A stretch of 57,218 bases of DNA, taken from contig JAICQO010000035.1 of NCBI GenBank assembly GCA_025937835.1, positions 1 through 57,218 of the forward strand, in the 5' to 3' direction. The stretch is from Polyangiaceae bacterium. GTDB lineage: Bacteria; Myxococcota_A; Polyangia; Polyangiales; Polyangiaceae. The notes under the pieces were generated by a model. That model had not been told where the DNA came from. It did not search any database and was given only the letters and a program-made list of their open reading frames with translations. This document shows positions 5,860 to 12,942 of this stretch, piece by piece. The stretch's first letter is position 1. Every line of letters starts with the position of its first letter. Made by a program: the position numbers and the translations under genes.

Positions 5860-8654
<2,795 letters not shown>

Positions 8655-8658
<4 letters not shown>

Positions 8659-9260
8659 CCAACCTCCGATGAGATGGACCGCGCGGCGCGCGCCGAAGGG
8701 GCTTTCGGCTCGGGCAACGACGTCCACTCGATCGCCTTTCGAATCTCGCTTGCGAAACGCGGCTCCGTCACGGCGAGCAGCGCCGTGTCGGTGCGTCCCA
8801 GGCAGGCACCGAAGCTTGCCTTGGTGCCGAACGCCTGCGCCCGCCCTGATGCAATCCACGGTTCCAGAAATGCTTGCGACGCCGCGGCCCGCGCGTCCGT
8901 CGCCACGATCACGAGCTCGGCAAAGCCGCGCTCGATGGCCTCCGCCACGGCGCTCGAGCCGGCCTCGAGCTTCTTGGCGCGCCGGGCCGCGCCGATCAGG
9001 CCGAGCGCTCGCCGCTCGGCCGCGTCACGAAACAGCTGAAAAAACTGCGACGGCACGATGCCGAACGCCTGGCGGAACGCCCGATCGGCGCCCCCGCGCG
9101 CCGCCTGCATGAGGCAGCTCGGCTCCGGATGCAGCCACGCGCCGCGTCCGAAAGCGCGACCCGCGAGGTCGAACAACAGCTCGCCCTCGGGCCCAGCCAC
9201 GAGCCGGACCAAGCCTTCCGGGGCGGAGACCGCCCGACAGCCAATGCAGGTTCGATTCAC
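8655..9260 (-). CDS. YlxR (DUF448) and L7Ae-like fusion protein
   Basis: A 201-residue protein with two nucleic-acid-binding parts. Residues 1-75 match YlxR/DUF448 (RTCIGCRAV, then GRGAWLHPEPSCL with paired cysteines). About 85-185 match the L7Ae/L30e fold (LGLIGAARRAKKLEAGSSAV, then AELVIVATDA). In Bacillus these are separate neighbouring genes, ylxR and ylxQ, between nusA and infB; here they are one polypeptide. The start is the GTG at 9260, 5 nt after the nusA stop; upstream in-frame codons lie inside nusA and give only Arg-rich sequence. The 3' end overlaps infB by ATGA. The likely role is RNA binding tied to transcription or ribosome assembly, inferred from family and operon. Confidence 0.9.
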
Positions 9261-9265
9261 TCCGA

Positions 9266-10966
9266 CTACGCCTCCTCGCCTTCCGCGAGACCGTGATCGT
9301 GACCGGCAACGGCGGCCACGTCTGCCTGCGCCTGGGCTTCGAGCTCTGCGCGCTGCTGCTCGATGCGCTCGCGCGCCTCCTGCACTTCGCGCGCGACCGT
9401 CTTCTGGAAGTCGACGGCTCCTTGCCACACCTGACGCGCCTTCTTGTGACCGAGACCGCTCTTGATCGAGAGCCGATCCGGATCCTCGCGCGCGACGTCG
9501 CGGACGCTGCGGTAGCCCGAGTCTTCCAGGGACTGAGCCATGCGCGTGCCCATGCCCGGAATCAAGAGTAATGCTTCACGATCGCTCAGAGCGCCGCCTT
9601 GCTCGACTGCGCGGCGGATCCGCTCCTGGCGCAATCGCTCGAGCGCGCGCTCGGCCGCGGCCCGGAGCTCCTTGGCCCGCTTCTCGTCTTCGACGCCCTC
9701 GATGCTGGCGAGCTCGGCGAGCTCCGCCTCGGCGATCTCGTCCAGGGCGCGGAAGCCGAGGCCGAACAGGTTCTTCGCCAGCTCCTCTTCCATGCCGTCG
9801 ATCTCGGCGAGCTGGGTCATGGCCTCGTCCTCCATCTGGCGGAACTTGCTCTCGCTCACGATGTCGAGGCGCCAGCCGGTGAGCTGCGAGGCGAGCCGGA
9901 CGTTCTGGCCCTTGCGGCCGATGGCCAGGCTCAGCTTCTCGTCCGGAACCACGAGCTCCATGCGGTGGTTCGCCTCGTCGACGATCACGCGGTTGACCTC
10001 GGCGGGCTGGATGGCGTTGATGATGTAGCGCGCCGGATCCTTGTCGTACGGCACGATGTCGATCTTCTCGCCGCGGAGCTCCTGCACCACGGCCTGGACG
10101 CGCGAGCCCTTGATGCCCACGCAAGCGCCGACCGGATCGACGTCCGAGTCGCGCGAGGTGACGGCGATCTTGCTGCGCGAGCCGGGTTCGCGGGCGACGC
10201 CCACGATCTTGACGATGCTCTCGTAAATCTCGGGGACCTCGGCCTCGAACAATTTCTCGACCAGGTTGGGAGACTGGCGGCTGAGGATGATCATCGGGCC
10301 GCGCGCCTCGCGGTCGATGTTCTTGACGAACGCCACGATCCGGTCGCCGGGGCGGTACGTCTCGCGGGGCGTCTGCTCGCGCGCCGGCAGGATGCCCTCG
10401 GTCTTGCCGAGGTCGACGATCAGGTTGTGACCCTTCTCGAAGCGGCGAACGATGCCGCGGATCAGCTGGCCCTGACGGTCCTTGTACTCGTTGTAGATGA
10501 TGTCGCGCTCGGCGTCGCGCACCCGCTGCAGCAGCACCTGCTTGGCCGTCTGGGCCGCGATGCGACCGAACGCGCTGCGGGCCTGCTTCATGTCCAGCAC
10601 CGAGCCGAACTCCTTGTCCTGCTGCCGTGCGCGCTCCGCGTCGCGCGGGTGCCAGAACACCTGGAAGCCCAGGTCCTCCCCCACGTCGGCGTCGAGGCCG
10701 TGGCGCTGGGCGACGTCGAGCGCGATCTCGCGTTCGGGCTGCGCCACCGCCTCGACCACGGTCATGTACTGGAACAGGTCGATGTTGCCCGATTCCGTGT
10801 TGAAGCGCGCTTCGAGCTCACGATTGGGACCGAACGCTGCCTGTGCTGCCTTCAGGATGGCGGCTTCCATCGTCTCGATCAGCACCGCGCGATCGATGCC
10901 TTTTTCCTGCGCGACCTGATCGACGATCATGCCGAGACCTTCGGACATACCGGATGCTTGAGCCAT
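9266..10966 (-). CDS. nusA: transcription termination/antitermination factor NusA
   Basis: NusA binds RNA polymerase and nascent RNA and modulates pausing, termination and antitermination. The 566-residue protein shows the N-terminal polymerase-binding domain (about 1-125), an S1 domain (about 130-200, '[17 protein letters not shown]'), two KH domains (about 205-350, including '[18 protein letters not shown]' and [18 protein letters not shown]), and C-terminal helix-hairpin-helix repeats (about 370-510). The last part is longer than in Gram-positive NusA. The ATG at 10966 has AGGTGAG upstream and lies 3 nt after the rimP stop. Because NusA acts at hairpins, it could regulate its own operon through the leader terminator in front of rimP. 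Confidence 0.97.
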
Positions 10967-10969
10967 TTC

Positions 10970-11563
10970 TCACCTGCTCGTACGTTGCGGCCTCCGGGAT
11001 TTGCTCCCGGAAGCCGGTTTGCCGGCTCCCCCGCGCCTTTCACGCGGGCTCTGCCGGACCGAAGACTCGAACACCAGCCGCGCGCTTTCGATCGCGGCGT
11101 GGTCCAGAGCGATGCGCTCGCCGTTGTCGAGCTCGAGGGCGATCAGACCGCCCTCGTCGACGCCCTGCAGCAAGCCGAACACGACGTACTGACCGGCGTG
11201 CGGCTGCGAGAGCTTCAACCGCGCGGGTTGTCCCGCGAAGCGCGCGTAGTCACCCTTGCCGTAGAGCGCGCGCTCCACACCGGGAGAGCCGACCTCCAGC
11301 CGGTAGCGCCCCGGGATCACGTCGTTCGCGTCGAGCGCCGCCGACACCTCGCGCGAGATGTCGGAGCACAGATCGAGCGTGATGCCCTCACCCGGGATCC
11401 TCGAACCGGGCCGCTCGAGGGTGAGCTCCAACACCCAACCGCCGCGGTCGGTGCGCCACACGAGCTCGACGGCATCCAGCTGATGCGCCGAGAGCACGGG
11501 CGCGACCGCAGCGAGCACCTGCTCGCGGTCGAGGCCATGCAGTTTTTCGTGTGCGACGTTCAT
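10970..11563 (-). CDS. rimP: ribosome maturation factor RimP
   Basis: RimP acts in early 30S assembly. The 197-residue product has the two-domain RimP pattern: an N-terminal 'VLAAVAPVLSAHQLDAVELVW', a central 'LCSDISREVSAALDANDVIPG', then 'YRLEVGSPGVERAL', with a Sm-like C-terminal part and a basic Arg/Gly/Ser tail. The ATG at 11563 begins the protein at the usual point, but no Shine-Dalgarno sequence is present. Instead a run of nine U residues and a terminator hairpin end 5 nt before the start. The in-frame extension to 11659 would read through that hairpin and is unlikely. First gene of the rimP-nusA-ylxR-infB-DUF503-rbfA group. Confidence 0.95.
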   Translation of the reverse strand: MNVAHEKLHGLDREQVLAAVAPVLSAHQLDAVELVWRTDRGGWVLELTLERPGSRIPGEGITLDLCSDISREVSAALDANDVIPGRYRLEVGSPGVERALYGKGDYARFAGQPARLKLSQPHAGQYVVFGLLQGVDEGGLIALELDNGERIALDHAAIESARLVFESSVRQSPRERRGGAGKPASGSKSRRPQRTSR

Positions 11564-11568
11564 TAGAG

Positions 11569-11599
11569 AAAAAAAAACGGACCCACAAGAGCGGGCCCG
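11569..11599 (-). terminator. intrinsic terminator / candidate attenuator in the rimP leader
   Basis: On the minus strand a 7-bp stem (CGGGCCC with GGGTCCG, one G-U pair) and an 8-nt loop are followed at once by nine T residues. Five bases later comes the rimP ATG. The stem plus T-tract is the classic factor-independent terminator. It could end serA transcription, but nothing downstream of it leaves room for a rimP promoter, so transcripts entering rimP must read through it. Confidence 0.8.
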
Positions 11600-11730
11600 C
11601 GAGGGGAATCCCGGTTTTTCGAACGCGCGGAGTCTAGCCAAGCAGAGGGGGTCGCGCAAGCGGGCTCAAACGCTGCGGATTCGCTTCGCTGACGCCCCGG
11701 AACCGGCCCGTTACCCTGCGAGGCACCCGG

Positions 11731-12942
11731 CTACGCCAGGTTCGGCAGGGTGACCAGGTCCACGTGCAGGACCTCGTCGGAGAAGGCCATGATTTCCTGC
11801 AGACAATCCTCGCTCGGGCGGCGACTGAGCCGGATCTTGACGCAGGCGGCGCGCCCGCCCTCGAACACGGTGCTGTCCAGGTCGTGGATGTTGATGCCGT
11901 GCCGCTTCAGCACCGCGAGCACGTTGGCGAGCGCCCCGACCTTGTCGAGGTGCCGAACCACCAGCTGGTAGCGCGACCAGGACGTGGCGCTGATGTTCAC
12001 GACGTTCGGGACCTCGCCCTTGGTCACGAAGCTGCGCAGGATCCGCACGCACTCGGTGGCGATCGCCGTCTGAGCCTCGTCCGTCGAGGCGCCGATGTGC
12101 GGCGTGGCGTAGACGAGGCCGTTCGTCAGCAACGCGTGGCTGTAGCTCGCGCTACGGGCGCCCGGCTCGTCCGGCAACACGTCGAGGCCGACGCGCAGGC
12201 GCTTCTTGGGGATGAGCTCGGCGAGCGCCGCGTAGTCCACGAGCTCGGCGCGGGCCGTGTTCACGAAGATCGCGCCATCTGGCAACGCCTCGAGCACGCG
12301 CCGGCTGACGATCTCTCGCGTCCGGTCGGCCAGCTCGAGGTGCACCGTGAAGATGTCGACCTGGGCAGCCAGGTCTTCGGGGCTCTGGACCCGCACCACG
12401 CCGAGCTCGCTAGCGCGGCTCGACGTGAGCGAGCGGCTGAAGGCGTAGGGCCTGAGCCCGTAGGCCTGCGAGAGCTTGAGCACGGCCCGACCGACGTGGC
12501 CCATCCCGAGGATGCCGATCTTGCGGCCCGACAGCCCGACGGCCCGAGCAAACTCGTGCTTTTCCCACTTCCCGGCGCGCAAGCTGGCGACTGCGTCCGG
12601 AACCCGCCGATCCAGGCTGCCGATCAAGGTGAACGTGAGCTCGGCCACGGCGGAGGCGTTCTTGCCGGGCGTGGTGGCGACGTAGATGCCGCGCTCGCTG
12701 GCCGCGGCGACGTCGATGTTGCTATAGCCGGCGCCGGCGCGGATGATGAGATTCAGGGATTTTCCAGCGCGCACCGCGTCGCCGCTGACCTCGGTGCCCC
12801 GCACCACCAGCACGTTGATGTCGGTCAAGGCCTCGGGGAGCGCGTCCGTCCGAAGGTCGGGCTCGTAAACGACCTCCGCGCCGAGCGCGCGCATCTCATC
12901 GAGGCTCTCCTCACTCAGGCGGTCGGCCACCAGCACTCGCAT
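11731..12942 (-). CDS. serA: D-3-phosphoglycerate dehydrogenase family protein with ACT domain
   Basis: A 403-residue cytoplasmic NAD-dependent 2-hydroxyacid dehydrogenase; SerA oxidises 3-phosphoglycerate as the first step of serine synthesis. The nucleotide-binding motif is GILGMGHVGRAV. The catalytic Arg, Glu and His lie in NTARAELVD, LPDEPGA and TPHIGASTDEAQ. A C-terminal ACT domain (about 325-400, 'LDKVGALANVLAVLKRHGIN') may bind serine for feedback inhibition. The protein lacks the long intervening domain of type I enzymes and is closest in layout to the roughly 400-residue E. coli form. It follows the DUF1285-like gene by 16 nt. A different hydroxyacid substrate cannot be excluded by sequence alone. 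Confidence 0.88.
   Translation of the reverse strand: MRVLVADRLSEESLDEMRALGAEVVYEPDLRTDALPEALTDINVLVVRGTEVSGDAVRAGKSLNLIIRAGAGYSNIDVAAASERGIYVATTPGKNASAVAELTFTLIGSLDRRVPDAVASLRAGKWEKHEFARAVGLSGRKIGILGMGHVGRAVLKLSQAYGLRPYAFSRSLTSSRASELGVVRVQSPEDLAAQVDIFTVHLELADRTREIVSRRVLEALPDGAIFVNTARAELVDYAALAELIPKKRLRVGLDVLPDEPGARSASYSHALLTNGLVYATPHIGASTDEAQTAIATECVRILRSFVTKGEVPNVVNISATSWSRYQLVVRHLDKVGALANVLAVLKRHGINIHDLDSTVFEGGRAACVKIRLSRRPSEDCLQEIMAFSDEVLHVDLVTLPNLA

Follow-up and report, generated by a model that had tools for sequence, protein, structure and literature searches.

Attenuation of the rimP-nusA-infB operon at a rimP leader, with transcription starting about 24 nt before a strong intrinsic terminator and with feedback by NusA, was considered the most likely reading, at somewhat better than even chances, of the sequence preceding rimP in the window, i.e., the whole stretch of 57,218 bases that was analyzed. 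The terminator itself was confirmed. A GC-rich hairpin with a T9 tract had been claimed to lie just before the rimP start codon, and it was found at 11600-11569 of the minus strand, where the hairpin (11600-11577), the T9 tract (11577-11569), the sequence CTCTA and the ATG (11563-11561) followed each other in the 5' to 3' direction, with 5 nt between the end of T9 and the ATG. The hairpin, the T tract, the promoter pattern upstream, the linkage to rimP, the near-fixed spacing and the conserved 5' segment were all read from the sequences (Table 1).

Table 1. Features of the rimP locus, given in window positions.
Feature	Position	Strand	Basis
Predicted -35 element TTGCGC	11654..11659	-	TTG[CA]NN-N16..19-TA pattern common to relatives
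Predicted -10 element TAGACT, 17-nt spacer from -35	11631..11636	-	Same pattern
5' segment of predicted leader RNA, 24 nt; predicted +1 ~11624	11601..11624	-	Conserved above composition in relatives; alignment A1
Terminator hairpin GCGGGCCCGC-TCTT-GTGGGTCCGT	11577..11600	-	Fold and pairing conserved in relatives
T9 tract	11569..11577	-	Read from sequence
rimP	10970..11563	-	Pfam RimP_N and DUF150_C, both above curated cut-off; N-terminus common to relatives
nusA, next after rimP	9266..10966	-	Pfam NusA_N, S1, KH_5 and HHH_5 domains
Frame containing infB (IF2)	5860..8859	-	Pfam IF2_N, GTP_EFTU and IF-2

The T9 tract was the sole run of at least eight T or A residues in the entire window. The hairpin folded into 10 bp closed by a 4-nt loop; the 7-bp stem and 8-nt loop described in the earlier note represented one register of the same hairpin rather than its predicted fold. 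The predicted 56-nt leader had a folding energy of -23.2 kcal/mol, with a z of -2.35 relative to dinucleotide-shuffled sequences, and the fold of the entire 170-nt gap between serA and rimP was unremarkable (z -0.11).

The order of genes on the minus strand was serA (ending at 11731), rimP, nusA, a YlxR-L7Ae-like frame and infB. At the start of rimP, an N-terminus resembling MxVAHExL was common to near relatives as read by eye from the DNA. In agreement with the earlier note, nusA followed rimP directly, and its Pfam domains were found. The true start of infB is probably located further inside its frame. The frame at 8655-9428 (minus strand), between nusA and infB, combined YlxR (DUF448) and L7Ae/L30e in one protein, resembling a fusion of two small proteins of the operon, the L7Ae/L30e match being just above its cut-off.

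The upstream regions of rimP were compared among 97 genomes, including that of the window. The rimP gene was found in 94 of them, and the loci of 90 were examined, which together with a duplicate (L031, the same locus as L009) gave 91 loci. Identical leader regions were shared by L034 and L035 and by L062 and L064, and L031, L035 and L064 were set aside as duplicates. A terminator score of at least 24 within 420 nt upstream of rimP was recorded in 80 of the 91 loci (77 of 88 without the duplicates). As controls, 1000 random stretches of 420 nt from the window gave 18 positives with the same scorer, a lenient comparison because such stretches are mostly coding, and ten rounds of shuffling the 91 upstream regions gave 0-2 positives each. 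When at least five contiguous T residues were required, 75 of 91 loci were retained, compared with 11 of 1000 random stretches. The start codons of distant loci were picked automatically. Eleven of the 91 loci had no scored terminator upstream of rimP, among them every one of the five loci sampled from family f6 (L085-L089). In these five genomes nusA followed rimP, and visual inspection revealed no terminator between the two genes either; loss of the leader where nusA had left the operon was therefore ruled out as an explanation. Outside the order, rimP was present in 83 sampled genomes of the phylum, and 42 of the 52 loci examined scored at least 24, although one of the scored set (L151) resembled a tRNA more than a terminator. 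Many of the hairpins outside the order took the form AAGTGGGC...GCCCGCTTTTTT, and comparable hairpins were thus present in further families of the phylum.

A model, R1, was built from alignment A1, which consisted of 17 group A-like sequences and excluded L005, L012, L020, L052 and others. In the genome of the window, R1 gave a single strong match, the window site itself (E 1.8e-18); the next match had an E value of 0.67, and hence no second strong site that would point to a regulon was detected in this genome. Matches at E<=1 were obtained in 74 of 98 family genomes, the weaker ones not all at rimP. Among the best 30 matches (E<=7e-8), all 24 with a known rimP position were within about 190 nt upstream of rimP on the same strand; the position was unchecked for the other six, and some of the matched genomes had also contributed to R1.

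Further, a promoter pattern was recognized upstream of the hairpin. Of 77 loci, 69 had the pattern TTG[CA]NN-N16..19-TA immediately ahead of the hairpin, 61 of them with a 17-nt spacer, compared with a mean of 2.35 and a maximum of 7 in mononucleotide shuffles. This set was without L031, L035, L064 and the loci scoring below 24, and both the pattern and the division into groups A, B, C and O were settled on once the alignment had been inspected. A sigma-70 consensus scan of 11000-12600 yielded no promoter, and the promoter call rests on the pattern common to relatives. The predicted 5' segment measured 21.7 nt (sd 4.7, 68 loci), and the distance from promoter to hairpin thus appeared near-fixed across the order. 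The distance from the hairpin and T tract to the ATG varied from 2 to 186 nt among relatives, the window being at the short end and its near relative L002 having 10 nt. Since the pattern lies just before the hairpin, transcripts from the predicted promoter would have to cross the terminator. In the window, the same would apply to any transcript carrying the rimP start, because nothing fits between T9 and the ATG. The statement that no room was left for a promoter was accurate downstream of the hairpin, but a promoter-like pair was located upstream of it. Another candidate promoter, noticed by eye as TCTAAT ahead of the ATG and overlapping the T tract, was rejected due to a poor -35 match and a start that would fall inside the frame. 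The Shine-Dalgarno site, for which no room had been noted, was indeed missing in front of rimP; this is normal in these genomes. The strict form (GGAG/GAGG) was found in 4 of 89 loci against a shuffled mean of 6.1, with automatic choice of starts, and a looser form in 11 of 89 against 14.3. The absence in the window is hence not special.

Fifty-four loci, assigned by eye to four groups, were scored for conservation above shuffled composition. The 5' segment (0.16-0.67 per nucleotide) and the hairpin arms (0.33-0.74) had the highest values. Some conservation was recorded for the loop (0.02-0.46) and for the spacer between -35 and -10 (0.04-0.17), and the scores were near zero (<=0.07) past the T tract and over the 40 nt that precede -35. 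The comparison of relatives proposed earlier showed that the pairing of the hairpin was conserved. Seven core pairs were paired in 100% of cells among 17 near relatives, versus 11-57% when slid. Double changes occurred at two of the core pairs, in one sequence each, and four pairs were invariant in all 17 sequences and carry no evidence for pairing. The motifs of the 5' segment differed by group, being nACAAYUYGGGUGGAUCC, GGUGGNUGU and ACAACUAGGYGGAUCC, and the leader appears to carry a clade-specific conserved segment of about 20 nt. The 5' segment of the window was a degenerate version of the clade motif (GAAAAACCGGGAUUCC), without the UGG of the motif. The segment was slightly more open than in shuffled sequences (0.61 versus 0.57; higher in 43 of 68 loci). 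No motif in common with rRNA leaders was seen by eye in the two genomes, of eight asked, that had 16S.

We proposed that transcription starts at the predicted site about 24 nt upstream of the strong intrinsic terminator and that many polymerases would stop after about 50 nt. Transcription of rimP-nusA-infB would be left to the polymerases that read through. The NusA produced from the operon would act on the nascent 5' segment and the hairpin and favor termination, so that a high level of NusA would turn the operon down. In this scheme we infer the start site, termination itself, its regulation and NusA as the regulator. Attenuation of the operon, as claimed in the earlier note, was supported by the terminator, the promoter pattern and the spacing in relatives. 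For the feedback, NusA is the most likely factor by analogy with B. subtilis and E. coli, and S1 and KH domains were found by Pfam in the NusA of the window. Conservation of sequence, beyond pairing, in the stem and the 5' segment suggests recognition by something, and in the absence of a clear switch it implicates a protein in reading the leader. Several observations speak against the scheme: 11 of 91 loci lack the scored terminator, including those of the f6 genomes, which keep nusA beside rimP; the 5' segment is only slightly more open than shuffled ones; and the 5' segment of the window departs from the motif of its clade. In addition, a U9 tract after a stem of this strength may suffice for termination in the absence of NusA.

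A more specific proposal is put forward tentatively and is held as possible rather than probable. The rimP leader of the order would be a near-fixed promoter-terminator module in which the 5' segment of about 20 nt would be bound in a sequence-specific manner by a protein, NusA through its S1/KH domains being the most likely candidate, with the clade variants nACAAYUYGGGUGGAUCC, AGUUGGUGGNUGU and ACAACUAGGYGGAUCC. Its placement would let it leave the polymerase just before the hairpin forms, making the leader a minimal autogenous termination sensor. If this is right, feedback of the NusA type on its own operon would extend to a further major group of bacteria. The module, being short and conserved, would then serve as a compact system for studying how NusA recognizes RNA where transcription terminates, and the question of binding could be addressed directly with the 5' segments of the different clades.

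Among the alternatives, a fixed and unregulated partial terminator, which would merely set the level of the operon relative to the promoter, fared best, yet it was judged unlikely. The strong U tract and the fact that no covarying switch was found agree with it, whereas the conservation of sequence beyond pairing suggests recognition, and regulation at the B. subtilis leader has been reported in the available part of a review (PMC12288461). It was considered more doubtful still that the signal sensed is another product of the operon, such as RimP, IF2 or the YlxR/L7Ae-like protein, or else the ribosome. A single protein combining YlxR with an L7Ae-like match is encoded between nusA and infB, and RimP feedback was named as possible by Naville & Gautheret (PMC2965389, in the part available), but NusA alone is the feedback factor reported for this leader in the accessible portions of PMC12288461 and PMC6511841.

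A pairing switch, with the 5' segment acting as an antiterminator by binding to one arm of the hairpin, was regarded as very unlikely. Over 78 loci, the duplex energies of native 5' segments with their hairpins were no better than those of swapped pairs (p 0.91-0.99). By part of the hairpin, the swap test gave p values of 0.56-0.91 for the 5' arm plus loop, 0.90-0.99 for the loop, and 0.12 in group A and 0.81-0.94 otherwise for the 3' arm. The consensus folds contained the hairpin only, with no conserved alternative structure, and the best alternative fold in the window was weak (-8.5 versus -23.2 kcal/mol). Native 5' segments of group A (20 loci) did outperform shuffled ones in pairing with the arms, with -10.4 versus -8.7 (sd 0.6) for the 5' arm plus loop and -10.35 versus -8.7 (sd 0.4) for the 3' arm, and the arms of this group are near-invariant, which leaves the swap test little power there. 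The CCC/GGG antiterminator suggested earlier thus gained no backing from covariation or from the swapped pairs, and the switch was kept as a minor rival because of the result in group A, which slightly reduced the confidence placed in feedback attenuation.

A stand-alone small RNA, with rimP transcribed from a different promoter, was held to be highly improbable. The module is compact, its terminator is strong, and more than 100 nt separate the hairpin from the ATG in some relatives. Against this, the 5 nt in the window and the 2-12 nt between T tract and ATG in nine further loci (with automatic starts) leave no space for a separate promoter, and the genome of the window contains a single strong copy, beside rimP.

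That the hairpin is the 3' terminator of serA, which lies on the same strand about 130 nt upstream in the window, was rejected as hardly tenable, since serA was detected upstream of rimP on the same strand in just 19 of 91 loci (duplicate included; many loci covered no more than about 1 kb upstream, where a more distant serA would escape detection), five loci bearing the leader (L007, L010, L021, L043 and L047) had divergent neighbors, and the promoter pattern falls between serA and the hairpin. Ten upstream frames were considered, and seven were run through Pfam, five of them divergent (sigma-70 family, methyltransferases and response regulators) and two same-strand frames other than serA (L011 and L027). 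A serA-specific terminator, which would have spoken against attenuation, was thus contradicted by conservation across loci in which serA was not detected, and the comparison supports the view that terminator, promoter pattern and spacing track rimP rather than serA.

The Rfam family RF01770 (rimP), built on enterobacterial leaders, shares its gene position with the window feature. Nevertheless, none of 39 genomes gave an RF01770 match over the cut-off, and none was obtained in the genome of the window at E<=1. The model is narrow, exceeding the cut-off in 1 of 14 control genomes. None of four weak matches elsewhere shared a contig with rimP, for which one of the genomes gave no hit at all. At the gathering threshold, Rfam gave no match in the whole window, and matches to other families (two in the window stretch, four in 16 loci) were at chance level.

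The rimP-leader has been described as a stem GGGc(...)gCCC with a T stretch, 4-130 nt from the gene, before rimP-nusA-infB (Naville & Gautheret 2010, PMC2965389). According to the available part of that paper, its general form has no visible antiterminator, and the authors, reasoning likewise from conservation in the absence of a switch, proposed NusA as the factor. The window likewise has an intrinsic terminator with a G-rich 5' arm, a C-rich 3' arm and a T stretch before the same operon, and its spacing falls in the described range, with some relatives (2-186 nt) outside it. No conserved antiterminator was seen in the window or its relatives, although the 5' segment of group A has pairing potential. 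The stem core of the window, GGGC...GUCC, differs by one G-U pair and is extended by CC/GG pairs. With GGGC...GUCC versus GGGc...gCCC, the structure is nearer to the described leader than the earlier note had assumed, although RF01770 gave no match. Within the order, 43 of 88 loci carried a relaxed motif, GG[GA]C..G[TC]CC followed by T4, as did 28 of 52 loci from the rest of the phylum (shuffled means, 1.75 and 1.11). Unlike the published leader, for which the accessible text describes no larger conserved element, a conserved 5' segment of about 20 nt and a near-fixed promoter spacing were found here.

NusA of B. subtilis is reported to be autoregulated by NusA-stimulated termination in the 5' leader (PMC12288461), and E. 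coli NusA controls its own operon (PMC6511841), both as given in the parts of the sources at hand. In common with the B. subtilis leader, an intrinsic terminator lies between the operon promoter, here recognized by pattern only, and nusA. NusA-stimulated termination was reported there and is proposed here, and the predicted leader of 50-60 nt is shorter than the B. subtilis leader of about 180 nt (PMC2965389). No account of a rimP leader in Myxococcota was found in the literature as available, although the species lists of PMC2965389 may include the phylum and the term 'rimP leader' also occurs in PMC5391140 and PMC5955585, and the available part of PMC8060035 contained no mention of rimP, ylxS or autoregulation. 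Judged by its sequence, the window feature is of the known rimP-leader kind and falls outside the RF01770 model; what appears to be new is its spread in Myxococcota, the near-fixed module of predicted promoter and hairpin, and the conserved 5' segment.
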